A stretch of 36,374 nt of DNA from the NCBI GenBank assembly GCA_024276495.1, contig JAJRXC010000108.1, positions 1 through 36,374 of the forward strand, written 5' to 3'. Every line of letters starts with the position of its first letter. Position 1 is the stretch's first letter. Shown here piece after piece: positions 3,921-24,072 of this stretch. The position numbers and the translations under genes were made by a program. The notes under the pieces were generated by a model. The model saw nothing but the letters and a program-made list of their open reading frames with translations, made no database searches and was not told the origin of the DNA. This DNA comes from Actinomycetes bacterium (GTDB taxonomy: Bacteria; Actinomycetota; Acidimicrobiia; Acidimicrobiales; Aldehydirespiratoraceae).

Positions 3921-4943
3921 TCACCCCCGACGGACCACGTCGGCGACATCCGTGCCGAGGAGCTCGATCGAGCGGAGGACCCGGTCGTGGGGCATGGTGC
4001 CGACGCTGATGTGGAGCATGAACCGGGAGATGCCGAGAACCTCCCGCCACCGGAGGATCTTCCGGGCGACCCGTTCGGGATCCCCGAGCACGAGGGACCC
4101 CTCCGGTCGCCGCATCGCGTCGAACTGCGGACGCGTCATCGGTCCCCAGCCGCGTTCGCGCCCGATGCGGCTCATGGCTCGTACGTAGGACGGGTAGAAG
4201 TCCTCGGCCGCTCGATCGGGGTCGTCGGCGACGTAGCCGTGCGCGTGGACGGCGAGCGGGATCGAAGCCGGATCGAAACCCGAGTCCTCCAGGGTGCGGC
4301 GGTACAGATCGGCGAGCACCGCGAAACGGTCGGGGCTCCCGCCGATGATCGCGAGGGCGACGGGCAGGCCGCGCCTCGCGGCACGCACGATCGAAGCCGG
4401 TGTGCCGCCGACGCCGACCCAGACGGGGAGCGGATCCTGGATCGGTCGCGGGTAGACGCCGATGTCGTCGATCGGCGACCGGAACCGTCCCGACCAGGTG
4501 ACGTGCTCGGAGTCGCGCACGGCGAGGAGGAGGTCGAGCTTCTCGGAGAAGAGCTCGTCGTAGTCCTCCAGGGAGTACCCGAAGAGGGGGAACGATTCGA
4601 TGAACGAGCCGCGCCCGACCAGCAGCTCGGCCCGACCGTTGGAGAGGAGGTCGAGGGTCGCGTACCTCTGGAACACGCGGACCGGATCGTCCGACGACAG
4701 GACGCTCACGGCCGGGCTGAGGCGGATCCGCTCGGTGCGGCTCGCGATGGCGGCGAGGACCACCGACGGGGCCGAGGATGCGAAGTCGGGCCTGTGGTGT
4801 TCCCCGATCGCGTAGACGGCGAGCCCGACCCGGTCGGCGAGCGCGGCCTCGTCGACCACCCGGCGGAGGCGTTCCCCCGCATCGGGCGTGTCGCCGCCCG
4901 GGTCGGGGATCAGCTCGGCGAAGGTGGTGAGGCCGAGTTCCAC
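3921..4943 (-). CDS. LLM-class flavin-dependent oxidoreductase (bacterial luciferase-like)
   Basis: 340 residues of luciferase-like TIM-barrel fold using FMN or F420. Visible family marks are AIGEHHRPDF (about 45-54), the RIRLSPAVSVLSSDDP stretch after the second barrel strand, NGRAELLVGRGSF near 100-115, and PLPVWVGVGGTP at mid-protein. The tail LGISRFMLHISVGTMPHD is typical of the class. The start is GTG at 4943 with GAGGAGA 5 bases upstream. A TAGCCT at 4974-4979 could be its -10 box. It heads a likely two-gene unit with the M20 peptidase. Substrate is unknown; many paralogues occur in actinomycetes, and the sequence alone does not separate FMN from F420 use. Confidence 0.85.
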   Translation of the reverse strand: MELGLTTFAELIPDPGGDTPDAGERLRRVVDEAALADRVGLAVYAIGEHHRPDFASSAPSVVLAAIASRTERIRLSPAVSVLSSDDPVRVFQRYATLDLLSNGRAELLVGRGSFIESFPLFGYSLEDYDELFSEKLDLLLAVRDSEHVTWSGRFRSPIDDIGVYPRPIQDPLPVWVGVGGTPASIVRAARRGLPVALAIIGGSPDRFAVLADLYRRTLEDSGFDPASIPLAVHAHGYVADDPDRAAEDFYPSYVRAMSRIGRERGWGPMTRPQFDAMRRPEGSLVLGDPERVARKILRWREVLGISRFMLHISVGTMPHDRVLRSIELLGTDVADVVRRG

Positions 4944-5119
4944 GATGTCTCCTCGTCGGGTGTTGGGGGATCGAGGCTACCGTCGGTCACAGGCTCGCCC
5001 GACGGCGCCGTCGGGCGACCGGACCCGCACGGTGTCGCCGTCGGCGACGCTTCATCGTTCACCAGAATCCGGAGGTGTTCGACGCAACCGCCGTACCTGT
5101 TCGGATCCAGATCGACGGG

Positions 5120-5148
5120 TTGACACTGAGTGAACGATCATTCATAAT
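5120..5148 (+). promoter_or_regulatory. Near-consensus sigma-70-type promoter of the SDR-TetR operon
   Basis: TTGACA at 5120-5125 and CATAAT at 5143-5148 are separated by exactly 17 bases, the best match to the housekeeping consensus in the window. Transcription would start near 5155, giving a leader of about 30 bases before the ATG at 5186. Confidence 0.75.
5127..5145 (+). promoter_or_regulatory. Operator copy 1, imperfect palindrome
   Basis: TGAGTGAACGATCATTCAT is an imperfect palindrome of the TGAnTGA..TCAnTCA type typical of TetR-family operators. It fills the spacer between the -35 and -10 boxes. Confidence 0.7.
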
Positions 5149-5166
5149 GAGTGAGCGTTCATTCAT
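5148..5166 (+). promoter_or_regulatory. Operator copy 2, tandem repeat of copy 1
   Basis: TGAGTGAGCGTTCATTCAT matches copy 1 at 17 of 19 positions and lies exactly 21 bases (two helical turns) downstream, over the -10 edge and the expected transcription start. Confidence 0.7.
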
Positions 5167-5185
5167 CAACGGAGAGCGAGTGACC

Positions 5186-6127
5186 ATGGCGTGGACGACG
5201 GATGAGATCCCCGATCTCTCGGGGAAGGTCGCCGTGATCACCGGCGCCAACAGCGGGCTCGGTCTCGAGAGCGCCGGGGCGCTGGCGCGCGCGGGCGCGC
5301 ACGTGGTCATGGCCGTGCGCGACGTCGAGCGGGGTGGCGCGGCGATGGAGGCGATCATCGCCGACGACCCGGCGGCGTCCCTCGAGGTCGTGCACCTGGA
5401 CCTGGCGTCGATGGCCTCCATCAAGACGGAGGCGGCGTCGATCCTTCGGACGCACCCCACCGTCGACATCCTCATCAACAACGCAGGCCTCATGGCGCTC
5501 CCGCAGCAGCGAACCGAGGACGGGTTCGAGATGCAGCTCGGCGTCAACCACCTCGGACACTGGGTCCTCACCGCGAAGCTCCTCCCCGGGATCGTCGCGT
5601 CGGACGCAGGACGCGTGGTCTCGGTCACGAGCATCGCCAGGCTCATCGGCAAGCCGGTCGATCCCGACAACCCACACCTCGAGGGCAGGTACGACCCGTG
5701 GCGGGCGTACGGGCAGTCGAAGCTGGCCAACTACCACTTCGCCCTCGGTCTCCAACGGGCGTTCGAGGAGCACGGCGTTCGGGCGGTCAGCACAGCGGCC
5801 CATCCCGGGCTGTCGAGGACGAATCTCCAGGCACGCACCGTCGAGGAGGGAGGCGCCGGCACGTCGGGATCGGTGTCGGCGTGGCTCGCGGACACGACCG
5901 GCTCGGACCCCGCCGAAGGCGCGCTCCCGCAGCTCCGGGCGGCGACCGACCCCGGGGTGCTCGGAGGTGAGCTCTTCGGCCCCCGATGGGTGTCGAAGGG
6001 GCCCCCGGTGCGCAGGCCCCTCGTGCGGCGCCGCAGCCTCGATGCGGCCGTCGAGCGACTGTGGGACGTGTCGACCACCGAGACGTCGGTGTGGTTCGAC
6101 TTCGATGCGGCGATGGCGCGGTCGTGA
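5186..6127 (+). CDS. Short-chain dehydrogenase/reductase (retinol dehydrogenase-like SDR)
   Basis: 313 residues. This is a classical-type SDR with Rossmann motif TGANSGLG (19-26), NNAG (98-101), catalytic Ser149, Tyr175 and Lys179 (Y-x-x-x-K), and HPGLSRTNL after the active site. Length and the DNPHLEGRYDPWRAYGQSK loop fit the retinol dehydrogenase/protochlorophyllide reductase-like branch; the substrate is unknown. ATG 5186 is preferred over GTG 5180 because GGAGAG at 5171-5176 is 9 bases from the ATG but only 3 from the GTG. It is the first gene of an operon with the TetR regulator (TGATG junction, one shared base), behind a promoter carrying two operators, so it is probably induced by a ligand of that repressor. 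Confidence 0.88.
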   Translation: MAWTTDEIPDLSGKVAVITGANSGLGLESAGALARAGAHVVMAVRDVERGGAAMEAIIADDPAASLEVVHLDLASMASIKTEAASILRTHPTVDILINNAGLMALPQQRTEDGFEMQLGVNHLGHWVLTAKLLPGIVASDAGRVVSVTSIARLIGKPVDPDNPHLEGRYDPWRAYGQSKLANYHFALGLQRAFEEHGVRAVSTAAHPGLSRTNLQARTVEEGGAGTSGSVSAWLADTTGSDPAEGALPQLRAATDPGVLGGELFGPRWVSKGPPVRRPLVRRRSLDAAVERLWDVSTTETSVWFDFDAAMARS

Positions 6128-6705
6128 TGAGCCCGGCCACCCGGGTGGACAGGCCGGCGGCGATCCGGCGTGCGATGCGTGAACTGGTCGCCGAACAGGG
6201 GTTCCACGGGGCGTCGATGAGCGCCGTCGCGCAAGCGGCAGGTGTCGCCACCGGCACCGCGTACGTGCACTACGACTCCAAGGAGGCCCTGGTGTGCGCG
6301 GCGTACGCCGAGGCGAAGCAGGAGATGAGCCGGGCCGTCGTCGCTGCGGTCGACCCGCACGCCCGACCGGAGGAGCGGTTCAGGCAGATGTGGCGCGCTG
6401 CGTACGAGTACATGACGTCCAACCCCGGCCAGGCACGGTACCTGATGCAGGTGGATGTGTCCCCCTACGCCGATCGGGCGCGCAGCAAGGTGAAGGAGGG
6501 CAACGACCCTCTCGTCATCGAGGCATCGAGGCCCGATATCGTCGGCCTGCTCGTTGCGCTGCCCATCGACGTGGTGTACTCGCTGAGCCTCGGCCAGGCG
6601 GTTCGCCTCGCGGCGGGCGGCATCGAGCTGAGCGACGACGAGGTCGATACGGTGATCGATGCCTGCTGGCGGGCGATCACGAGACCTTCGGCGGCCTCCC
6701 CCTGA
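6127..6705 (+). CDS. TetR/AcrR-family transcriptional regulator
   Basis: 192 residues. The N-terminal helix-turn-helix lies at about 10-55, with MSAVAQAAGVATGTAYVHY as the recognition region and the following SKEALV typical of TetR regulators. The C-terminal ligand domain is not assignable. The ATG at 6127 overlaps the SDR stop by one base (TGATG), which suggests translational coupling and rules out longer upstream starts as needed. The gene is cotranscribed with the SDR from the promoter carrying two TGAGTGA-type palindromes, so the simplest model is that it represses its own operon (inference). It converges on the MFS gene, 30 bases away. Confidence 0.88.
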   Translation: MSPATRVDRPAAIRRAMRELVAEQGFHGASMSAVAQAAGVATGTAYVHYDSKEALVCAAYAEAKQEMSRAVVAAVDPHARPEERFRQMWRAAYEYMTSNPGQARYLMQVDVSPYADRARSKVKEGNDPLVIEASRPDIVGLLVALPIDVVYSLSLGQAVRLAAGGIELSDDEVDTVIDACWRAITRPSAASP

Positions 6706-6735
6706 CGGGCGGCCGTACCGCGTCGGCCCACCGCA

Positions 6736-8022
6736 TCAGGTGATGCAGGCGCCCTCGGCCCCGTGACGGGGATCTCGCAGGAGGAGCGCAGCGACGACCG
6801 CACCGGCCATGGCGACGACGTCGACGACGAGCACGAACGAGATGGGGACCCAGGTGACCACGACACCGATGGCGAGGGGAACCAGTGCGATGGGTGCCAG
6901 GAGCGTCCCGAGCAGCGCGACGCAGGTCGCTCGCAGGTGGTCGGGCGCCATCTCGAGGATGATGTTGGAGTAGCCCAGCCGCACCCCGCTCATCGTCGCC
7001 CCGACGAGGAAGAACGTGAGGAACAACGGCAGCGGCCCGACGACGAACGCGGCGATGCCCGCGAGCACGGCGCCGAGACCCGCCAGGGACGTGCCGACGA
7101 TCACGGTCCGGTTGCCGAGCCGGTCGCCGAGGTAGCCCCACAGGAGGTTCGACAGCGCAGCCCCGGTCATCTGCGCCGCGAGATAGAGACCGACGGACGC
7201 CGGGGGAACGCCGATGTCGTTGAGCGCGAACAGGACGAAGAAGGGCGCCGACAGCACCATGACGGCGGTCAGGCCCCGTGCGGTGATGAGTCGCCGGAAG
7301 TTCCGGTTCACCTTCGTCAGGTGCACGGCCCTCACGAGGGAGTCCCGGAAGGACTCCGTCTCGCGTTCGTGGGTCGAGGGTGGTTCCCGGACCAGGGCGA
7401 TGCCGCCGAACGCGACCAACAGGAACGCCGAGGCGAGCGCGAAGATGAGCGCGAAGTTCATCGGGTAGGGGATGCGTTCGGGATCAGAGAGGATCCATGC
7501 GACCACCCAACCGGCCCCGATGGCGAGCGTGTAGCCGATCAGCTGTTTCCATCCGATGAACCTGCCCCGCCGTTCGGTGGGGATCGCCTTCGCGAACACG
7601 TCGGCGTACACCACCGACCCGACCCCGCCTGCGAGGGAGAACGATGCGAACAGTGCGACGAGGAGGATGAGAACGACGCGGGGTGCGTCGAGGGCGAACA
7701 GTGAGGTGACGACGGCGAGGAGGCCCCACGACACCCAGCGCATCGTGATGATCCACATCAGGATCGGCTTCTCGTACCGCCGGGCCTCGACGTGGTAGGC
7801 CGTGAACAGTTGCGGGACCACCTCACCGATCTGCTGGGCGACCACCATCAGGCCGATGACGACCGTCGAGGCCGTCAGCGTCGCGATGAAGGACGGCAGC
7901 ACGGTGTTGATGTTCGAGAACGCTTCCGAGAGCTGGAAGAACACGCCGTGGATGAGGCCACCGGTGAAGTTCCTCCGGTAGTCCGCCGGCGGGGCGGTGT
8001 CCTGGAGCGGCGGTGACTGCAT
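6736..8022 (-). CDS. Major facilitator superfamily transporter
   Basis: 428 residues with about 12 hydrophobic segments arranged in two halves around a charged central loop (about 205-235, ending in DSLVRAVHL). The intracellular loop between helices 2 and 3 carries a GEVVPQLFTAYHVE stretch rather than the classic GxLaDrxGrr. The second half has LLWGYLGDRLGNRTVI, a good match to the signature loop. Most likely a proton-coupled exporter or importer in the inner membrane; no substrate can be named. There is no Shine-Dalgarno sequence. TACCCT at 8030-8035 lies 7 bases before the ATG, so translation is probably leaderless. It is convergent with the TetR gene and shows no operon partner. Confidence 0.87.
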   Translation of the reverse strand: MQSPPLQDTAPPADYRRNFTGGLIHGVFFQLSEAFSNINTVLPSFIATLTASTVVIGLMVVAQQIGEVVPQLFTAYHVEARRYEKPILMWIITMRWVSWGLLAVVTSLFALDAPRVVLILLVALFASFSLAGGVGSVVYADVFAKAIPTERRGRFIGWKQLIGYTLAIGAGWVVAWILSDPERIPYPMNFALIFALASAFLLVAFGGIALVREPPSTHERETESFRDSLVRAVHLTKVNRNFRRLITARGLTAVMVLSAPFFVLFALNDIGVPPASVGLYLAAQMTGAALSNLLWGYLGDRLGNRTVIVGTSLAGLGAVLAGIAAFVVGPLPLFLTFFLVGATMSGVRLGYSNIILEMAPDHLRATCVALLGTLLAPIALVPLAIGVVVTWVPISFVLVVDVVAMAGAVVAALLLRDPRHGAEGACIT

Positions 8023-8029
8023 ACCCCCC

Positions 8030-8035
8030 AGGGTA
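8030..8035 (-). promoter_or_regulatory. -10 box for a leaderless MFS mRNA
   Basis: TACCCT (TAnnnT) on the minus strand, 7 bases upstream of the ATG at 8022. No clear -35 is seen. Confidence 0.45.
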
Positions 8036-8070
8036 CCGACATCTCCCCCCCACCGACAGGCGTCTCGGGG

Positions 8071-9891
8071 TCACGGCGGGGGTGGGATCGCCGTGGCGAG
8101 CGAGTCGAGGATCGCCGCGGCGAGGGCGTCGGCTTCCTCTGCGGTCGTCCTCAACACGGGGTCGTCCTCGGGTCGTGCCTCCGGCCACTCGATCGGGTCC
8201 GGGAGGAACGCGATCCGTGCGTTCAGGGGGAGGTCGGGGTGCGTCGCGTGGTACAGGATCACACCGCTCGCAGGGTCGGCGTCGGTCCACACCATCCAGC
8301 CGTTGTCCCAGCCCACGGCGTTCGCATCGCAAACGTCGCACCCGGGGGTGTCGTCCCAGCGGTAGTACCACGTCACCGAGAGCACGTCTGCGTTCCCGAG
8401 CGACACCTCGAGGAGTTCCTGGATCGGGACGTCCCCGGCCATGGTCGCCCGGTACAGGTACGGCCTCCAACCGTCGGGGGGAAGGTTCGCGAGCACGGCG
8501 CGGACCATGGCGTTCGACAGGGTCGGCGCCTCACCGCCCGCACGCACCGAGCGGATGATCGCTCCGGGGTCCTCATCGTCGACCGTGACCCACGACGGGC
8601 TGACGATCTCGTCGGTGATCTCCGGCTGGTCCCCGATCCCGGAACCCGAAGCCGGGGAGACGACCGTCGTGGTGGTCGCGAGCCCGTCCTGTGCGTCCGG
8701 GGGCGGGACGGTCGTCGTCGGGGCCCGATCCGGGTCGCAGGTGCTTCGCTGGATGATCTCGAGCATCTGTGCGGCTTCCTCGACCGTCGGTAGGCTCCCG
8801 TCCGAGCGCACCGACGTGGCTGCGTCCTCTTCGAGGTACCGCTCGGCGAGGACGACGAGGTCGGGGTCGTCCGCCGAACAGAGCTCGATGAACCGCTCAC
8901 CCCATACGAGCGGGGAGGTCTGTGTGAGCCCGAGGCCGTTGACCCAGGTGGACGTCTGTCCCGCGAGGTCCGTCCCGGCCCGCACACCGTACGTCTCTGC
9001 GCACGCCACGATCTGGATCACGCGTGGTTCCACGTCGCCGTAGGTGCCGCCGGCGATGATCCCGCCGTCGAGACCCCACCAGAACGGGTCCCCCTCCTCG
9101 ACAGTCGTGACGCCGGGAACCGCCATGAGGGCATCGAGGAGGTCGGAGGGAGGTTGGCCGGTGACCGGGATCGTGCGCGTGAGGTAGACCCCGGGTGAGC
9201 AGTCGAGTCGCCCGATGCTCGAGGCCCAGCCCACGGGCGCGGCCGTGGGGTAGCGATCGCGTCGCTCGAACGTGAGCGTGACCGCGTCGGTGGTCCACGT
9301 CATCGTGTCTCCGTCGATGGTGAGGCCGACGCCGTCCGAGCCGGTCTCGAGTGCCGCGAGCACGGCGGGTTCGGGTGTCTCGTCGACGCACCCTGCGGCT
9401 TCGACGACGATCTCGCCGAACACCAGGCGGTCGCCGTCGGAGAGCGCCACCGTGGTCGGGCTGACCCCGTTGCACCCCGTGTAGCCGGTGAGGGTGTCGC
9501 CGCTGATCTCGATCCACGCAGGGACCCGGCCGTTCGCGGTGAGCGCCGCCTCGTCCACCGCTTGCGTCGTGTCGTTGGAGGTGTAGGCGGCAAGTACCCA
9601 GATCCCCTCCACGGACGGCTCGGAGGTGGTCGTCGTGACCCCCGGTCCGGCCACCCCGTCGGAGTCGGTGACGTTCGACCCGATCAAGGATGCGATGCCG
9701 ACCACCAGGAGCGTGACGGCGGCGGCAGCGGCGAGGATCACGATCGGCCGCCACCGCGTGAGCGGGGGCTCGACGCGTCGCAACGTTGCGTACCCGGCGG
9801 TGATGGACCGCAGGCTCGGGGCTTCCGGGGCGAGCTCGACGAGGTCGTCGAGGGCGCGTCTGGCCTCGTGGATCAGGTCGTCTTCATGCAT
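8071..9891 (-). CDS. Single-pass membrane protein with extracytoplasmic META (HslJ-like) domain, probable sigma-factor regulator
   Basis: 606 residues. An acidic cytoplasmic N-terminus of about 45 residues is followed by one membrane helix (about 48-70), a Thr-rich linker, and a META/HslJ-like domain (about 95-215) marked by GTWVL-like GIWVLAAYTS, TGYTGCNG and a second Cys. The rest, about 390 residues, is an exported region I do not recognise, with a Thr/Pro-rich segment near its middle. The ATG at 9891 overlaps the ECF sigma-factor stop by 8 bases. The geography (short cytoplasmic head, one helix, long outer part, coupled to a sigma gene) is that of anti-sigma factors, but no ZAS zinc motif is visible, so that role is inferred. 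Confidence 0.7.
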   Translation of the reverse strand: MHEDDLIHEARRALDDLVELAPEAPSLRSITAGYATLRRVEPPLTRWRPIVILAAAAAVTLLVVGIASLIGSNVTDSDGVAGPGVTTTTSEPSVEGIWVLAAYTSNDTTQAVDEAALTANGRVPAWIEISGDTLTGYTGCNGVSPTTVALSDGDRLVFGEIVVEAAGCVDETPEPAVLAALETGSDGVGLTIDGDTMTWTTDAVTLTFERRDRYPTAAPVGWASSIGRLDCSPGVYLTRTIPVTGQPPSDLLDALMAVPGVTTVEEGDPFWWGLDGGIIAGGTYGDVEPRVIQIVACAETYGVRAGTDLAGQTSTWVNGLGLTQTSPLVWGERFIELCSADDPDLVVLAERYLEEDAATSVRSDGSLPTVEEAAQMLEIIQRSTCDPDRAPTTTVPPPDAQDGLATTTTVVSPASGSGIGDQPEITDEIVSPSWVTVDDEDPGAIIRSVRAGGEAPTLSNAMVRAVLANLPPDGWRPYLYRATMAGDVPIQELLEVSLGNADVLSVTWYYRWDDTPGCDVCDANAVGWDNGWMVWTDADPASGVILYHATHPDLPLNARIAFLPDPIEWPEARPEDDPVLRTTAEEADALAAAILDSLATAIPPPP

Positions 9892-10318
9892 CGAGCACCC
9901 CCTCGAGCTTGCGCTTGGCGAGGTGGAGGTACCGCCGGACCGTGGCCGGTCGGCACCCCATGTACCGTGCAGCCTCGTCGCTGGTCATCCCCACCCAGTA
10001 CGACAGGTAGATCGCCGCTCGCTGCTGGATCGGGAGCCCGACGACGGCGTCGAAGACGTCGGGCCGGGCGTCGGCGGGCTCGACGGCCTGGTCGACCAGC
10101 GGGAGCATCCGCCTCTGCCGCTTGCGGTCCATCGCCTCGTGGAACACGGACTTCATCAGGTACGGGCGGGGCGCCTCGAGGTCCGAGAGCGTCCGTCCGG
10201 ACCTGTACACCCGTGCGATCACCGTTGACAAGACATCCTCCGCGTCCGACGGTCCAACCAGGACGGTCGCATACCGGATCAGGTCGCCTTTGAGCTCCCT
10301 GTAGATCGTTTCGTCCAT
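9884..10318 (-). CDS. ECF-type RNA polymerase sigma factor
   Basis: 144 residues from ATG 10318; a second ATG at 10333 would add five residues. Region 2 spans about 8-70, with DAEDVLSTVIARVYRS as the core-binding part and RPYLMKSVFHEAMDRKRQRR as the -10 recognition helix. Region 4 spans about 92-140, with a helix-turn-helix in MTSDEAARYMGCRPATVRR followed by YLHLAKRKLEG. The size fits small ECF factors of the SigE-like groups of actinomycetes. AGGGG lies just upstream of the chosen ATG. Its stop overlaps the META-domain membrane protein, which is probably its regulator and is cotranscribed with it. Confidence 0.85.
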   Translation of the reverse strand: MDETIYRELKGDLIRYATVLVGPSDAEDVLSTVIARVYRSGRTLSDLEAPRPYLMKSVFHEAMDRKRQRRMLPLVDQAVEPADARPDVFDAVVGLPIQQRAAIYLSYWVGMTSDEAARYMGCRPATVRRYLHLAKRKLEGVLDA

Positions 10319-10426
10319 CCCACCCCTAAACACGGTTGGAACCCCGTTTCTGTTGCACGCGATCTCAGGATCTCTCGTCGAGGGCGTGGCCGATGCTAGG
10401 GACTCGGGTACCCGGCGGGTGTCCTG

Positions 10427-11446
10427 TCAGGTCGCGTGGAGCTCGAGGATGTCGCCGTCCTCGACGACGTGGTCGCGTCCGACCTGCTGGGCGTCGAAGT
10501 CGGCGGCGCCCCACAGGCGTGCGTACCGGAACCCTTCGGCGATCTCGCGGTGTACGAGCCGTGCAACGTCGAGCACGGTCGCACCGTGCCGGACCGTGTA
10601 GGGCCGGTCCAGGTCCGGATCCTTCCCCGGGATCTTCGTGTACACCCGCACGACGCCGAGATGTTCGAAGAGCCACTCACCGAGTTCGTCGATCCCCTGC
10701 CCGGTCTCGGCCGACACGGCGAGGCACGGGTAGCTCACCTCGGCGAGCTCCTCGAGGATCGCCAGTTCCTCGCTCGGGTCGGACCGGGCGTCCGACTTGT
10801 TCGCCACCAGCAGCGTCGGCAGGACCTTCGTGAAGAGCTCGGCCTCCTGTTCGTCGGCGACGTCGCCGTCACCCGGCCAGCGATCGGTCAGTTCGACACG
10901 GCGCTCTCGGAGCAGTTCGTGGAGGACGACGACACGCTCCACGCAACCGGGCTTCGAGAGGTCCACGACGAGCAGGCACCCGTCCGCAGGTTGCAGCGCG
11001 TTGGAGATCCACGGGATGGGGTGCTCGACGGCGATGGGAGGCAGGTCGACGAGTTGGATCGACACGTCGCGCACCGGCATCATCCCGGGGAGCGGGAACT
11101 GGGTCGTGAACGGGTACGGGCCCGTCTGGGCGTGTGATCCGGTCGCCCGCACGTGGAGCGTCGACTTGCCGGTGTTCGGTGGTCCCAGCAGAGCGATCTG
11201 CCCTGCCCCTTCCGACTTGACGACGGTGGCAGGCCCGGTCCTCGCGCCGCCCTTCGCGGGCCCCGCCAGCTCCTCGGTGAGCTCCTTGATCTTCGCCTTG
11301 ATGTCGGATTGGAGGTGCTCGGTCCCCTTGTGCTTGGGGATCGTCCGCAGCATCTCCCTGAGGGCGTCGAGACGTTCGGCGGGTTCCTTCTCGCGGCGGT
11401 AGCGCTCCTCGGCGGCCTTGTAGGCGGGGGTCAGGTTCGCCGGCAT
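10427..11446 (-). CDS. DRG-like GTPase with C-terminal TGS domain
   Basis: 339 residues of the Obg/DRG superfamily. The N-terminal helical region (1-75) with IPKHKGTEHLQSDIKAKI resembles the DRG helix-turn-helix. The G domain has P-loop GPPNTGKST (88-96), NKSD (216-219) and SAETG (G5). The C-terminal TGS domain covers about 262-339 and ends in VEDGDILELH. The G3 motif reads DLPP instead of DxxG, which is unusual, and the strand after the P-loop has HVRATGS. DRG proteins act on ribosomes, and this one is probably a translation-associated GTPase (inference). It lies downstream of tRNA-Gly on the same strand with 56 bases between. Confidence 0.83.
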   Translation of the reverse strand: MPANLTPAYKAAEERYRREKEPAERLDALREMLRTIPKHKGTEHLQSDIKAKIKELTEELAGPAKGGARTGPATVVKSEGAGQIALLGPPNTGKSTLHVRATGSHAQTGPYPFTTQFPLPGMMPVRDVSIQLVDLPPIAVEHPIPWISNALQPADGCLLVVDLSKPGCVERVVVLHELLRERRVELTDRWPGDGDVADEQEAELFTKVLPTLLVANKSDARSDPSEELAILEELAEVSYPCLAVSAETGQGIDELGEWLFEHLGVVRVYTKIPGKDPDLDRPYTVRHGATVLDVARLVHREIAEGFRYARLWGAADFDAQQVGRDHVVEDGDILELHAT

Positions 11447-16783: not shown

Positions 16784-17503
16784 TCAGACGATCGAGAACT
16801 CCAGGAGACGCTCGTATAGCGGAACGCATCGATCCCGCAAGGCCACGAGGTCGTCGGACACGGTCGTCGGGCGAGCGGGCGTCGGCTCGAACCCGGTCGT
16901 GGCGTGGAGGCGTGTGTACCAGTGCTCCCCCCAGACACCGTCGTAGGGCTTCGGTCCCGCCGGCCACGACAGCATCACCGGGTCGAACGGCACGCCCAGC
17001 GCGTCGCAGAGTTCCCTGAGCACGTGTTCGGGGTCGTCGAGGACGTTGCGGGAATCCACGACGACGGGCCGGCGGCCGGAAGCGATGATCCGCTCGACGA
17101 TCTGTACCTGGAGGTCGTAGCCGCTGTCGGCCATCGTGGGTGTTCGACCGAGACCCCTCGCGAGGGACGGCAGCATCTCGGAGGGATCGCGGGTGAGGAG
17201 GAAGTTGTCCATCGCATCTACGATCCCGATGTCGATGCCGACGAGGTGGTGCGCCATGTTCTTGTAGAACACGATCGGAGTCCCCCACCGCCCGCGGGTC
17301 ATGGTCTCGACGATCTCGTGGGCGTCGGTCGGCATCGCCTCTACGATCTCGTCGCGCATGGGATGGTCGACACCCGAGACCACGAGGTAGTTCCCGTACA
17401 TCGGCTCGTCCCATACCGTGGTGTCGTCGCGCTGGGCCCAGGCGTACATCATCGCGGTCGAGATGTTGCGCGGCGACGCCCACATGTTGACGATCGTGGT
17501 CAC
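16784..17503 (-). CDS. Sulfotransferase-family protein (P-loop, PAPS-dependent type)
   Basis: 239 residues. The N-terminus VTTIVNMWASPRNISTAMMY contains the 5'-phosphosulfate loop (ASPRNIST, 9-16) of PAPS-dependent sulfotransferases. A second motif region has VVDSRNVLDDPEHVLRELC, resembling the 3'-phosphate-binding stretch. The family transfers a sulfonate group from PAPS to an alcohol or amine; the acceptor is unknown. The GTG start overlaps the aminotransferase stop in a GTGA, so the two are translationally coupled. It is the last gene of the cysDNCQ-type operon, which would make PAPS for it. I recall plant proteins in which this sulfotransferase-like domain is fused to a class IV aminotransferase; that would support a functional link. 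Confidence 0.75.
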   Translation of the reverse strand: MTTIVNMWASPRNISTAMMYAWAQRDDTTVWDEPMYGNYLVVSGVDHPMRDEIVEAMPTDAHEIVETMTRGRWGTPIVFYKNMAHHLVGIDIGIVDAMDNFLLTRDPSEMLPSLARGLGRTPTMADSGYDLQVQIVERIIASGRRPVVVDSRNVLDDPEHVLRELCDALGVPFDPVMLSWPAGPKPYDGVWGEHWYTRLHATTGFEPTPARPTTVSDDLVALRDRCVPLYERLLEFSIV

Positions 17504-18297
17504 GGCGTGTCCTCGGGAGCACCCGCCTCGGCAGCGAAGGCCCGTGCGCGGGCCTCGATCAGCGCGGCGGTGACCGGGCCCGGCGTTCCTGTGCCGATCG
17601 TCCGGCCGTCCACCTCGACGACGGGTGTGAGTCCGCCGTACGTTCCGGTGACGAACGCCTCGTCGGCCGCGTAGACGTCCTCGAGCGTGAAGTCGCGTTC
17701 GCCGGCGGCGATACCCGCCTCGCGGGCGAGCTCGAGGACGAGGGTGCGGGTGATGCCGTTGAGGCAGAACTCCCCGCGCGATGTCCACACCTCGCCCCCC
17801 GTCACGATGAAGAAGTTCGTCGAGTTGCAGGTCGCGACGTGACCGTTCGGATCGAGCATCAGTGCCTCGTCGGCGCCGTCCTCGATCGCTTCGAGGAGCG
17901 CGACCACCTCATGGATCTTCGAGTGGCAGTTCCATCGCTGGTCGATCGTGTCGGGAGGTGGTCGACGGACCCGTGATGTCGCGAGCCGGATGCCGTCGGC
18001 GACCGCGGCGGGGTCCGGCTTCTTGTGTTCGGCGATGATGACGATCGTCGGCCCTCCATCGACCAGGCGCGGATCCTGAAGGGGTGTGTGCTTCCTCCCT
18101 CGCGTGATCATCAGACGCACGTGAGCGTCGGTCGTCATGGTGTTGCGGTCGACGATCTCGTGGAGGAGTTCCGTGATCTCGTCTCGAGATCTCCCGACGT
18201 CCATCCGCACACCTGCCGCCGAGGCGAACAGGCGGTCGAGGTGTCGGTCGAGGTGCACGAAGACGCCTTCGTGGAACCGTCGCTCAGGGAGACCCAT
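17500..18297 (-). pseudogene. Class IV PLP aminotransferase (BCAT/D-amino acid type), N-terminus missing
   Basis: About 265 residues of class IV (branched-chain or D-amino acid) aminotransferase fold. Recognisable parts are HLDRHLDRLFASAAGVRMD, QRWNCHSKIHEVVALLEAI with the PLP Lys, ADEALMLDPNGHVATCNSTNFF, and LNGITRTLVLELAREAGI. Normal family members have roughly 45-60 further N-terminal residues with the DHGxxxGDGVFE strand. Here homology begins only around 18258-18276, and the frame upstream is cysQ read out of phase. ATG 18297 could start a shortened protein (MGLPERRFHEG...), but it would lack the first strands, so activity is doubtful. Its stop overlaps the sulfotransferase start (GTGA). 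Confidence 0.72.
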
Positions 18298-18953
18298 CCG
18301 CCGGCTGCGACGACCAGCGCCGCGCCGGCGGCGAGGTCCCACTCGTGCTTGGGGAGGAGCGTCCACGTAGCGTCGAGGCGCCCCGCAGCGACGAGCGCCA
18401 GCTTGTAGGCGACCGACCCGGTCGGGACGATGTGATGTACCGAACCCTCGAACCGGCTCCACTCACCTCTGCGGACCTCGGAGCGGCTCGCGCACACCGA
18501 TGCGTCCAGGAGGGAGGTGCCCCGCGACGGGCATCGAGCTCCTTCGTACGTCACCCCGACACCGACGGCCCCGACGATCCGTTCACCGGTCGCCGGGTTG
18601 TGGATCCCGCCGGCAACGGCCGTGCCGTCGACCACGAGCCCGATCGAGACCGTCCATTCCGGGATCCCCTCGACGAACTCCCGCGTGCCGTCGATGGGGT
18701 CGACGATCCACACCCTGGATCTTCCGAGTCGATCGCGAGAGTCCGCGGTCTCCTCGGACAGCCAACCGTCGCCGTCCAGCGGAAGCGAACGGCGTAGAGC
18801 GTCGTCGACGGTGACGTCGGCGACGGTGACGGGGTCGTCGCCGTCCTTGTAGGTCGTCGCGAGGTCCCGGTCGCCCAGGCGTGTGAGCACGTCGACGGCG
18901 GTGTCGAGTCCGGCCTCGATTCGAGCCAGATCGTCGTCGATGCCCACGATCAC
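18135..18953 (-). pseudogene. cysQ: CysQ-like 3'(2'),5'-bisphosphate nucleotidase, C-terminus lost at a junction
   Basis: Residues 1 to about 227 are a good inositol-monophosphatase-fold PAP phosphatase: SEET (Glu67/Glu68), WIVDPIDGTREF (Asp85, Asp88) and HEWDLAAGA (Asp206) are the metal ligands. It would convert PAP to AMP and so relieve product inhibition of the sulfotransferase. After GGWVSLSDGS (codon 227, near 18273) similarity ends and the frame continues as low-complexity Ser/Thr/Arg-rich sequence to 18135. Relatives carry about 35-45 more residues. The GTG start overlaps the cysC stop (GTGA). Either a deletion in the organism or an assembly join explains this; the core metal site is intact, so residual activity is possible. 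Confidence 0.72.
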
Positions 18954-19531
18954 CCGATGAGCGACAGGACGGCGGCGGCACCCTCGTCGAGGGTCATCAC
19001 CGAGGTGTCCACGGTGAGGTCGGGATGCTCGGGGGCCTCGTACGGTGCGGAGATCCCGGTGAAATCGGGGACCTCACCGGAGCGAGCCTTCGCGTACAGG
19101 CCCTTGGGGTCTCGCGCCTCGCAGACGGGGAGCGGGGTCGCCAGGTACACCTCGAAGAACGGGATCCCGGCAGCATCGTGTGCGGACCTGACCGCCGCCC
19201 GATCCGCCGAGTACGGGGAGATCACCGGGACGAAGACGGTCAACCCCGCATCAGCCATGAGCCGGGCCGTCTCGCCGACCCTTCGCACGTTCTCGGCCCG
19301 ATCCTCGGGTGTGAAACCGAGGTCGGCGTTGAGACCGTGGCGCAGGTTGTCACCGTCGAGGCAGTACGCAGCACGTCCCGAAGCGACGAGCAGGGCCTCA
19401 CAGCGGAACGCCAGGCTCGACTTGCCGCTCGCCGACAGGCCCGTCATCCAGACGGTGCACCCCTTCCCGGTGATCGACTCCCGGGCGGCCCGATCGGTCT
19501 CGCCCCCGTGCATGCTCACCGCAGGACTCAC
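18950..19531 (-). CDS. cysC: Adenylylsulfate (APS) kinase
   Basis: 193 residues. P-loop GLSASGKSS, then LDGDNLRHGLNADLGFTPED, ENVRRVGE and a KGLYAKAR-x-G stretch are textbook CysC motifs. It phosphorylates APS with ATP to give PAPS. All key residues seem present and the length is usual for a stand-alone APS kinase. GTG 19531 overlaps the cysN stop by four bases (GTGA), and its own stop overlaps the cysQ start in the same way. An internal ATG (MHGGETDRAARES) could be an alternative start. It is the central enzyme of a PAPS-forming operon that lacks any PAPS reductase. Confidence 0.93.
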   Translation of the reverse strand: MSPAVSMHGGETDRAARESITGKGCTVWMTGLSASGKSSLAFRCEALLVASGRAAYCLDGDNLRHGLNADLGFTPEDRAENVRRVGETARLMADAGLTVFVPVISPYSADRAAVRSAHDAAGIPFFEVYLATPLPVCEARDPKGLYAKARSGEVPDFTGISAPYEAPEHPDLTVDTSVMTLDEGAAAVLSLIG

Positions 19532-20793
19532 AGTGCCAACCCACCGATGATCCCGGCACCGACGGTGCGGTTCGTGCCCTCGTCGATGAGGATGAACGAC
19601 CCGGTTTCGCGGTTCTTGCGGTACTCGTCGAAGAAGAGCGGGGCCGTCGTGCGCATCGTGACCCTGCCGATCTCGTTGAGTCCGAGGTCGGTTGCGTCAT
19701 CGACGCGGTGCAGCGTCTCGATGTCGAATCGGTACTGCAGGTCGCGGATGAGCGCCCGGGCGGATCTGGTCGTGTGCTTGATCCCGTACTTGGCTCCGGG
19801 ACGGAGTCGCACCGTCTCGGACATCCAGGTGACGATCGCGTCGATGTCCTGTCCGACCTGCGGGCGATTGTTCGGCCTGCAGATCATGTCGCCGCGCGAG
19901 ACGTCGATGTCGTCCTCGAGGGTGATCGAGACCGAGAGGCCGGCGGGGGCCTCGTCGACGGAGCCCTCGAACGTGTCGATCGACGCGATCGTGGACGAGA
20001 AACCGGACGGGAGGATCATCACCTCGTCACCGGGACGCAGGACACCGGAGGCGATCCTGCCCGCGTAGCCGCGGTAGTCCTGGTGCTCCATCGTGTGCGG
20101 CCGGATGATGTACTGGACGGGGAAGCGAGCGTCGATCAGGTTGCGATCGGACGCCACGTGGATCGTCTCCATCGTCTCGAGCAGGGTCGAACCGTGGTAC
20201 CACGGCATGGCTTCGGACCCCTCGACGACGTTGTCCCCCTCGAGCGCTGAGACCGGGACGAATCGCAGATCGGCGATGTCGAGACGCGCAGCGAAGCTTC
20301 GGAACTCGTCCATGATCTCGTCGTAGACCTTCTGCGAGTAGTCGACGAGGTCCATCTTGTTGACACACAGGACGAGGTGGGGCACCCGCAGCAGCGAGGA
20401 GATGAAGGCGTGACGCTTCGTCTGCTCGAGGACCCCCTTGCGGGCGTCGACGAGGACGAGGGCGATGTCGGCCGTGGAGGCTCCCGTCACCATGTTGCGC
20501 GTGTACTGGACGTGTCCGGGAGTGTCGGCAAGGATGAACTTGCGCTTCGGTGTGGCGAAGTACCGGTACGCCACGTCGATCGTGATCCCCTGCTCACGCT
20601 CGGCCCGAAGCCCGTCGGTGAGCAACGCGAGATCGACGTAGTCCGAGCCGCGACGCCGTGACGCGTCCTCGATCGCCTCGAGCTGATCCTGGAATACCTG
20701 TTTGGTGTCGTACAGGATCCTCCCGATGAGCGTCGACTTGCCGTCGTCGACCGACCCGGTGGTCGCGAGGCGGACGAGTTCCATCTGGTGCAT
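19528..20793 (-). CDS. cysN: Sulfate adenylyltransferase subunit 1 (GTPase subunit)
   Basis: 421 residues, EF-Tu-like. Motifs: GSVDDGKSTLIGRIL (P-loop), REQGITIDVAYRYF (switch I), DTPGHVQYTRNM (G3) and NKMD (G4), then two beta-barrel domains. CysN couples GTP hydrolysis to adenylation of sulfate by CysD. There is no fused CysC domain, since cysC is separate downstream. ATG 20793 overlaps the cysD stop by one base (TGATG). If cysD is truly truncated by its internal TAG, CysN would lack its catalytic partner, and TGATG coupling to cysD would also be lost. Confidence 0.93.
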   Translation of the reverse strand: MHQMELVRLATTGSVDDGKSTLIGRILYDTKQVFQDQLEAIEDASRRRGSDYVDLALLTDGLRAEREQGITIDVAYRYFATPKRKFILADTPGHVQYTRNMVTGASTADIALVLVDARKGVLEQTKRHAFISSLLRVPHLVLCVNKMDLVDYSQKVYDEIMDEFRSFAARLDIADLRFVPVSALEGDNVVEGSEAMPWYHGSTLLETMETIHVASDRNLIDARFPVQYIIRPHTMEHQDYRGYAGRIASGVLRPGDEVMILPSGFSSTIASIDTFEGSVDEAPAGLSVSITLEDDIDVSRGDMICRPNNRPQVGQDIDAIVTWMSETVRLRPGAKYGIKHTTRSARALIRDLQYRFDIETLHRVDDATDLGLNEIGRVTMRTTAPLFFDEYRKNRETGSFILIDEGTNRTVGAGIIGGLAL

Positions 20794-21698: not shown

Positions 21699-21996
21699 GG
21701 CGTGAATCGTAGCCGTGCCGGTGTCCGGCGGGACGGTGGGCGGTTCCGGCGGCGTCGGGTCGATGCATCGACCACGGCCGCTGCCACCTCGCGGGGTGGA
21801 GCCGCGCTCACTCCCGTTTCGAAGAGGGCCGATGTGCCCCTCCGGCGCCGGTGATCGACGAGTACGGTTGACGGTGAAGGTGTCGGCGTGCCGGGGGTGG
21901 AGCGTCTCGATGGACGGCGTTGTCGCGATGTCCGCCCCGTGCGCACCGGTCGGTCGCCGAACGTGCGACGAGGGATCCTGGGAGGGGATGAACGGT
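21699..21996. other. Divergent intergenic region between cysD and the protease
   Basis: 298 bases with no convincing gene. It holds the cysD -10 and, on the plus strand, a TACGGT at 21863-21868 that could be the protease -10, giving a leader of about 120 bases. No operator-like palindrome was recognised. Confidence 0.45.
21706..21711 (-). promoter_or_regulatory. -10 box of the cysD operon (leaderless)
   Basis: TACGAT on the minus strand, 7 bases before GTG 21698. No clear -35 is seen. Confidence 0.5.
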
Positions 21997-24072
21997 ATGC
22001 GATGGCACGTCTCGAAGCTCGTGATCGCGATCGGCCTCGTGGCTTCGGTGGCGAACCCCACCGCGGCGGCAGCCGACGACGTCGGCCCCTTCGCCGACCA
22101 GGTCGTACCGGGTGCGCCGATCGGGTCGGGTGACGTCGTGGTCCCCGTCCCCGACCGTGGGAACCGGGACGACTTCGAAGCCAACATCTTCGGCGGGTCG
22201 ACCGTCGGGCCCGGGGAGTTCCCGTTCATGGTGCGTATCGCGCAGCGCGCCGTCGCGGACGCCCGGGACGCGGGCTTCTGTGGGGGATCGTTGATCAGCC
22301 CATCGTGGGTCCTGACGGCAGCGCACTGCACGGATGTCTTCTCCCCGTCCGAACTCGACGTCGTCGTCGGCGAGCGCGATCTCTCGTCGGTCGCCGCCGT
22401 CAACCGCATCCCGGTCGCTGCGATCTACGAGCATCCGGGGTACGTGCCCGGGTCCAACGGTGGCTCGTTCGTGCCGGCGATCAACGACATCGCCCTCATC
22501 TTCCTGGCGAGGCCGGTGTACATCAACATCGAGGTCGATCGCGACATCGACGCCGCCCGGGTCCTCAGCCTCGGAGCGTCGTTCGGGGATCCGTACATGG
22601 CCGGGTGGGGCTCGATCGACGCCGCGGGGACCGTACCGGACGTCCTCCAGGCCGCCGCCATGTTCATCGGCACCGACGCCGAGTGCACCGCGCTCCTCGG
22701 GTCCGACTACGACCCTGCGACGAACCTGTGCGCCGTCAACCAGGGGATCGGCACGGCGTGTCCGGGTGACAGCGGGGGACCGCTCGCCGTGTTCGATCAG
22801 GAGTACGCCTACCACGTCGGTGTCACGGGTTGGGTCACCGACGGCAGGTGCCGGATCGATGGCGTGACGGTGTTCACCTGGGTGTACGCGTACCTCGATT
22901 GGATCCGTGCGAGGGTCTGGGAGCCCAACGACGTGGTGAGCGACCGGACGGTCATCGCGTCGGTCCCGTACCTGACCCAGCAGCTCACGACCGGGGCGAC
23001 CCGCGACGCATGGGAGCTGTCCTCGGTGACCTGCGACGGGCGATCGGTGCCGATCGATGCGACGGTCTGGTACGAGGTCGTCCCGACGTTCACCGGGACG
23101 ATGTTCGCCAGCACCTCGACGAGCGACTACGACACGGTGCTCGTGGTGAACCGTCTCGAGGGGAACTCCGTGGTCGCGTACGCGTGCAACGACGACGTGA
23201 GTTCGGGCGATGCGACGTCGGGAGTCGCGTTCGACGTCGTCGCCGGGAACCGGTACTTCCTCCAGGTCGCCGGGTACGCCGGTGCGAACAGCCGTGGGAG
23301 CCTCAGCCTGTTCGTCGATCGACTCACGGGATCGGTCCCCGCGCCGCCACCCGACTCCCCCTACGGCAAGGGCGACCTCGTCGGTCTCGTCGACACGTCG
23401 GCGGGCAGGTGGCACCTGCGCCACGGCTCGGGAACGGTGTCGTCCTTCTACTTCGGGAACCCGGGGGACTACCCGATCATGGGTGACTGGGACGGGGACG
23501 GGGTCCGTACTCCGGGCATGTACCGCCAATCCGACGGGTACGTGTACCTGCGCAACTCCAACACCCAGGGTGTCGCCGACCTGCGGTTCTTCTTCGGGAA
23601 CCCCGGCGACGTCCCGATCGCCGGTGACTTCGACGGGGACGGGTTCGACACGGTGTCGATCTACCGTCCGTCGAACCAGACGTTCTACATCATCAACGCG
23701 CTCGGCGCCGACGACGGCGGGTTGGGTGCTGCGGAGTTCTCGTACGTGTTCGGGAACCCCGGCGACAAACCCTTCGTGGGGGACTTCGACGGTGACGGCA
23801 TCGACACGGTCGGGTTGCATCGCGAGTCCACGGGGTTGGTGTACTTCCGGAACACCCACACGCAGGGGATCGCCGACAACCAGTTCATCTTCGGAGACCC
23901 GGGCGATCGGCTGATCGCCGGTGACTGGACCGGCAACGGCGTCTCGAGCCCGGCGTTGTTCCGCCCGTCGAACACGACGATGTACTTCCGGTACACCAAC
24001 ACGCAGGGCAACGCCGACGACTGGCTCCCGATGGGCATGTCCGGCTGGATCCCCGTCATGTGGTCCCCCTGA
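21997..24072 (+). CDS. Secreted trypsin-like serine protease with C-terminal FGNPGD-type repeats
   Basis: 691 residues from ATG 21997, which has GGAGGGG 9 bases upstream and opens directly on a signal peptide (MRWHVSKLVIAIGLVASV..AAAADD, cleavage near 26). A longer frame upstream encodes no signal and is rejected. The peptidase S1 domain spans about 65-305, with His110 (TAAHC), Asp164 (INDIALI) and Ser259 (CPGDSGGP); Cys pairs suggest disulfides. A beta-sandwich, probably PPC-like, covers about 310-440. Then come four repeats of about 47 residues (from about 23448) built on FGNPGDxPIxGDWDGDGxxT-x-x-x-YR, an FG-GAP/VCBS-like pattern with Asp-rich calcium-type loops. Likely an exported or surface protease. 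No neighbouring partner. Confidence 0.9.
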   Translation: MRWHVSKLVIAIGLVASVANPTAAAADDVGPFADQVVPGAPIGSGDVVVPVPDRGNRDDFEANIFGGSTVGPGEFPFMVRIAQRAVADARDAGFCGGSLISPSWVLTAAHCTDVFSPSELDVVVGERDLSSVAAVNRIPVAAIYEHPGYVPGSNGGSFVPAINDIALIFLARPVYINIEVDRDIDAARVLSLGASFGDPYMAGWGSIDAAGTVPDVLQAAAMFIGTDAECTALLGSDYDPATNLCAVNQGIGTACPGDSGGPLAVFDQEYAYHVGVTGWVTDGRCRIDGVTVFTWVYAYLDWIRARVWEPNDVVSDRTVIASVPYLTQQLTTGATRDAWELSSVTCDGRSVPIDATVWYEVVPTFTGTMFASTSTSDYDTVLVVNRLEGNSVVAYACNDDVSSGDATSGVAFDVVAGNRYFLQVAGYAGANSRGSLSLFVDRLTGSVPAPPPDSPYGKGDLVGLVDTSAGRWHLRHGSGTVSSFYFGNPGDYPIMGDWDGDGVRTPGMYRQSDGYVYLRNSNTQGVADLRFFFGNPGDVPIAGDFDGDGFDTVSIYRPSNQTFYIINALGADDGGLGAAEFSYVFGNPGDKPFVGDFDGDGIDTVGLHRESTGLVYFRNTHTQGIADNQFIFGDPGDRLIAGDWTGNGVSSPALFRPSNTTMYFRYTNTQGNADDWLPMGMSGWIPVMWSP

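Follow-up and report, generated by a model that had tools for sequence, protein, structure and literature searches.

We identified an out-of-frame joint between two truncated genes in the window, a stretch of 36,374 bp that forms the whole of contig C100 in an actinomycete draft genome (G000; 111 contigs, 97.4% complete, 4.0% estimated contamination). On the minus strand, a CysQ-type phosphatase gene that has lost its tail runs into a class IV aminotransferase-like gene (AT; AT' for the remnant in the window) that has lost its head. The comparisons below support a single deletion as the origin of both truncations, and with a probability of roughly 0.7 this deletion removed the end of cysQ beyond codon 227 and the start of AT up to about codon 50, in an ancestor that had intervening DNA between the two genes.

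Results

The joint and the two truncated genes

The minus-strand gene order in the window is cysD, cysN, apsK, the CysQ-type phosphatase gene, AT and a Sulfotransfer_5 gene, with the following features:

16784..17503, minus strand: Sulfotransfer_5 (PF19798) sulfotransferase gene; a GTG that is probably its start codon would overlap the AT' stop
17500..18279, minus strand: head-less class IV aminotransferase-like gene (AT'), 48-51 first codons gone; Aminotran_4, 144.8 bits
18135..18272, minus strand: 45 out-of-frame codons and a stop that close the cysQ-type ORF, replacing a lost tail of about 30 residues
18273..18279, minus strand: joint, 7 nt compatible with both the cysQ-type and the AT gene; possible microhomology
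18273..18953, minus strand: homologous stretch (codons 1-227) of the cysQ-type gene, an inositol-monophosphatase superfamily member; Inositol_P, 152.5 bits
18295..18297, minus strand: nearest in-frame ATG, within cysQ, a candidate start for AT'
18950..19531, minus strand: adenylylsulfate kinase gene (apsK/cysC)
19528..20793, minus strand: cysN, 85% identical to the copy in genome G258 and 70% to a second copy on contig C29 of the window's own genome
20796..21713, minus strand: cysD, 83% identical to the G258 copy over residues 22-327

The complete CysQ-type ORF spans 18953..18135 on the minus strand and encodes 272 aa. Pfam Inositol_P (PF00459) covers its residues 28-240 with 152.5 bits against a cut-off of 27, and none of the 46 columns that are invariant in the alignment with relatives is changed, which places the protein in the inositol-monophosphatase superfamily. 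Its SEET, DPIDGT and EWD segments are presumably metal-binding. The two best relatives are 66% and 64% identical, and the alignment reaches about residue 227; the last homologous codons are DGS (18281-18273, the end of codon 227), and the 45 codons beyond DGS, up to the stop at 18135, hold no CysQ homology. The protein resembles CysQ and its superfamily in the Inositol_P domain and in the place of its gene after cysDN-apsK, the latter being the reason for using the name CysQ. It differs from them in the lost tail and in scoring below the cut-offs of the NCBIfam CysQ equivalog (TIGR01331; 90.3 bits against 228.8, which is partly expected for a truncated protein) and of NCBIfam HisN (115.8 bits against 275.15). 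A phosphatase with its tail swapped for 45 frame-shifted residues would be expected to be unstable or inactive.

The homology to AT restarts in a different frame, at the Arg encoded by 18279-18277 (RFHEG). The open AT frame spans 18462 to 17500 on the minus strand (320 aa) and extends upstream through cysQ. Similarity to 46 relatives begins at query residue 5 or 6 in 42 of them, and later in four; the Arg at the joint is residue 6. Aminotran_4 (PF01063) is matched with 144.8 bits against 28.5, over profile positions 7-223 of 223, and the N-terminal part that would complete such a protein is absent by 48-51 residues. The initial annotation had described this out-of-frame joint of a phosphatase that kept its metal ligands and an aminotransferase without its first strands, and the present alignments agree with it on the joint, on both truncations and on the phosphatase keeping its conserved columns. 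Its further statement that AT' retains the PLP-binding lysine was mistaken: the canonical column, which holds Lys in PDB entry 7p3t, holds Asn in all 53 aligned rows, that is, in the window and in its 52 relatives. A family with Asn in this column is not a canonical transaminase even when the gene is whole.

The closest solved sequences to AT' are PDB 7z79 and 9j32, both titled 'Aminotransferase, class 4' (E values of 1.5e-77 and 1e-76). The former carries Asn at the lysine column, as AT' does; the latter carries Lys, unlike AT', and looks like a point mutant. Both possess the head that AT' lacks, the match beginning at residue 58 of 317. A literature search for lysine-less Variovorax proteins yielded nothing. 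The segment N-S-H-S-K/R at the lysine column was also seen in three plasmid-borne AT homologues of Alphaproteobacteria.

Both genes are whole in their relatives. The AT panel was limited to matches with E values of at most 1e-40 that start at the first query residue, which reduced 84 rows to 52 distinct relatives (one row left out starts later, and the others repeated a relative already included or represented the window). All 52 carry a head of at least 48 residues before the Arg of the joint. For the CysQ-type panel, at least 55% identity was asked for and 64 of 116 rows were dropped below that value; the tail continues for 29-56 residues in 32 of the 33 distinct relatives, the remaining one ending at a contig end. 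The same junction was found in none of the 52 AT relatives and in none of the 32 CysQ relatives that could be judged, and sharing with conserved reading frames is what the initial annotation had named as the sign of a functional shortened pair. Within the window, the 20-nt junction string occurs once, allowing up to three mismatches. Relocation of the lost ends within the assembly was considered and rejected, as searches of the window's genome returned, apart from the junction itself, only two weaker paralogues for the AT head (53% and 40%) and three weak matches for the CysQ tail (33-43%).

A colinear relative with DNA between the two genes

The nearest relative of the region is contig C106 of genome G258 (17,246 bp), which carries the sulfotransferase, AT, cysQ, apsK, cysN and cysD in the order and on the strand seen in the window, with identities of 67%, 76%, 64%, 70%, 85% and 83%, respectively. 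We take this contig to be JAMBLJ010000106.1, from the metagenome-assembled Actinomycetes bacterium H2.bin.90. It differs from the window in having whole cysQ, AT and cysD genes, and in the 7,544 bp that lie between its last aligned CysQ base and its first aligned AT base, its alignment with the window breaking off and resuming at the joint. This intervening DNA contains both of the ends that are missing in the window, together with two ORFs on the opposite strand: one encoding a PrsW-family protein of 360 aa, and one of up to 2,144 aa with no Pfam match. The latter (positions 4745-11179 of locus L194) appears by eye to be rich in membrane segments. A PrsW-like query found no match in the window's genome, which is compatible with deletion and with the gene never having been present alike.

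With its colinear flanks and the DNA between them, C106 argues for one deletion as the explanation of both truncations, and it is the one relative found with this arrangement. In the 11 genomes of the G258 family that have both genes, these share a contig only in G258 and lie on different contigs in the other ten, which are fragmented drafts; in genome G356, cysQ and AT each sit at contig ends, so that their neighbourhood is uninformative. The ancestral order proposed earlier, cysQ followed by AT on one strand, is what G258 has; the direct adjacency that went with it is not, given the 7,544 bp and two ORFs in between. The deletion is therefore likely to be larger than the 250-300 bases that had been suggested for adjacent operon genes, judged by the sequence of a single distant relative.

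A small deletion (about 240-260 bp) in an ancestor with cysQ, AT and the sulfotransferase gene in one tight operon is the foremost alternative, yet we regard it as unlikely. The coding sequence lost amounts by itself to only about 50 AT codons and, from cysQ, about 30 codons with the stop; the two genes share a strand, and an operon that combined PAPS synthesis and PAP removal with a sulfotransferase would make functional sense. Against this, cysQ and AT are directly adjacent in none of the 52 AT loci, of which 31 cover at most about 1.5 kb upstream and 4 less than 1 kb; cysQ is found at just one of them, 7.5 kb away. Nor does AT occur in the flanks of any of 80 CysQ loci, covered for up to 6 kb downstream and for less at contig ends. 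From these surveys, the tight cysQ-AT operon was rejected as the common state.

Origin of the contig and integrity of the assembly

The cluster on C100 is not the usual sulfate-activation cluster of the genus, a possibility that was rejected after comparison with G005, a genome of the same genus. G000 carries another cysD-cysN-apsK set on contig C29 that is 85-94% identical to that of G005, whereas the set on C100 is 55-69% identical to G005 and 70-85% to G258. If C100 does belong to it, the genome holds six other matches to the CysQ-type phosphatase family, one of them beside the set on C29. In tetranucleotide composition, four 9-kb pieces of the window correlate with G000 at means of 0.548-0.585, and pieces of G000 itself do so at 0.666-0.758 in 25 of 26 cases and at 0.552 in one. 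For the whole window the correlation with G000 is 0.705, against 0.777-0.870 for 14 stretches of G000. The window correlates at 0.740 with G005 and at 0.409 with G258; the latter value, together with a G+C content of 0.684 in the window as opposed to 0.58-0.61 in G258, argues against an origin of C100 near G258. Either a binning error or the acquisition of an island could account for C100.

An error of assembly or library preparation, with the junction existing in no cell, is slightly less probable than the small deletion. In its favor, the draft genome is split into 111 contigs and its contamination is estimated at 4%, the junction is common to no relative, the composition of the contig deviates from that of its bin, and the nearby cysD, a single frame, is interrupted in frame by a premature stop codon at 21230-21228, which, if it is a sequencing error, counts against the assembly here. 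Composition gives no help here, as it does not separate the two sides of the joint: correlations are 0.598-0.779 for the four cross-joint pairs of pieces and 0.603 and 0.607 for pairs taken from one side, and the lowest value belongs to the pair that adjoins the joint. Against an error, assemblers work with words far longer than 7 nt, and no direct or inverted repeat of at least 14 nt overlaps the joint within 17800-18800. Moreover, G258 has both sides as neighbours, with order and strand unchanged, an outcome that a random chimera would not give; these colinear flanks make a chance chimera less likely.

Beyond cysD, a trypsin-family ORF (21715-24072, 785 aa) was seen by eye to contain four GDWDGDG-like repeated segments after its protease domain.

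Discussion

Taken as a single deletion, the junction would have arisen in an ancestor resembling G258, with the order cysD-cysN-apsK-cysQ, intervening DNA, AT and sulfotransferase, these genes lying on one strand. One deletion, running from just past cysQ codon 227 to about codon 50 of AT, would have joined the genes within the 7 nt that match both, and short shared bases may have guided it, 18273-18279 being a possible microhomology. The lost DNA, judged by G258, would amount to about 7.5 kb and would have included a PrsW-like protease gene and the large opposite-strand ORF. Illegitimate (short-homology) deletion is a cause of gene truncation in bacteria. The window is like such cases in its one joint, two interrupted genes and few bases that fit both, and differs in that the size of its deletion is deduced from one distant relative. 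This distance also counts against a single large deletion: the linkage is seen in one relative only (AT 76%, CysQ 64%, sulfotransferase 67% identical), and the intervening genes may instead be a gain on the G258 side.

So how old is the damage? The mean identity of AT' to 50 other relatives is 0.596, against 0.597 and 0.582 for its two closest whole relatives, and 1 of 62 invariant AT columns is changed. The CysQ part has a mean identity to its relatives of 0.588, inside their own range of 0.567-0.651. With neither remnant evolving faster, the damage is probably young. Continuing constraint on the two remnants would be the alternative, a young deletion being the simpler account. The premature stop in cysD, together with the junction, makes the cys cluster look broken in two places. 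If that stop is real, the two lesions would fit the early decay of a redundant cluster copy. AT' itself probably makes no working protein.

Two readings in which the rearrangement is of use to the cell fare far worse, and the cysD stop lowers the odds of both. It is most improbable that the pathway was rewired, the opposite-strand genes being removed and the sulfotransferase placed directly behind cysDN-apsK-cysQ, with the AT-like partner dispensable or working headless; if true, this would put synthesis and use of the sulfonate donor on a shared transcript. Even less credible is a functional shortened pair, kept by selection, in which the phosphatase does without its tail and the AT-like protein starts at the ATG at 18297: although the identities and the invariant columns (1 of 62 changed in AT, 0 of 46 in CysQ) show no acceleration, a young deletion accounts equally well for the absent decay, the start of AT' would have to lie inside cysQ, the AT head is kept in 52/52 relatives, cysD of the same cluster has its premature stop, and no other genome has the junction.

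Directly 3' of the AT-like gene and on the same strand, a Sulfotransfer_5 gene is present in 51 of the 52 relatives, with no match at one locus. An AT homologue was also found in 20 plasmid records; in the three that were inspected, the neighbours differ. The sulfotransferase had no match in the PDB, and a literature search on the pair returned nothing.

The junction is probably the result of an ordinary deletion that broke two genes. It calls for caution in annotation, as domain searches label both broken genes as normal family members. The kind of damage is ordinary; the second gene comes from an enzyme look-alike family without the usual catalytic residue, and the pairing of the lysine-less AT-like gene with Sulfotransfer_5 deserves study ahead of the junction itself.
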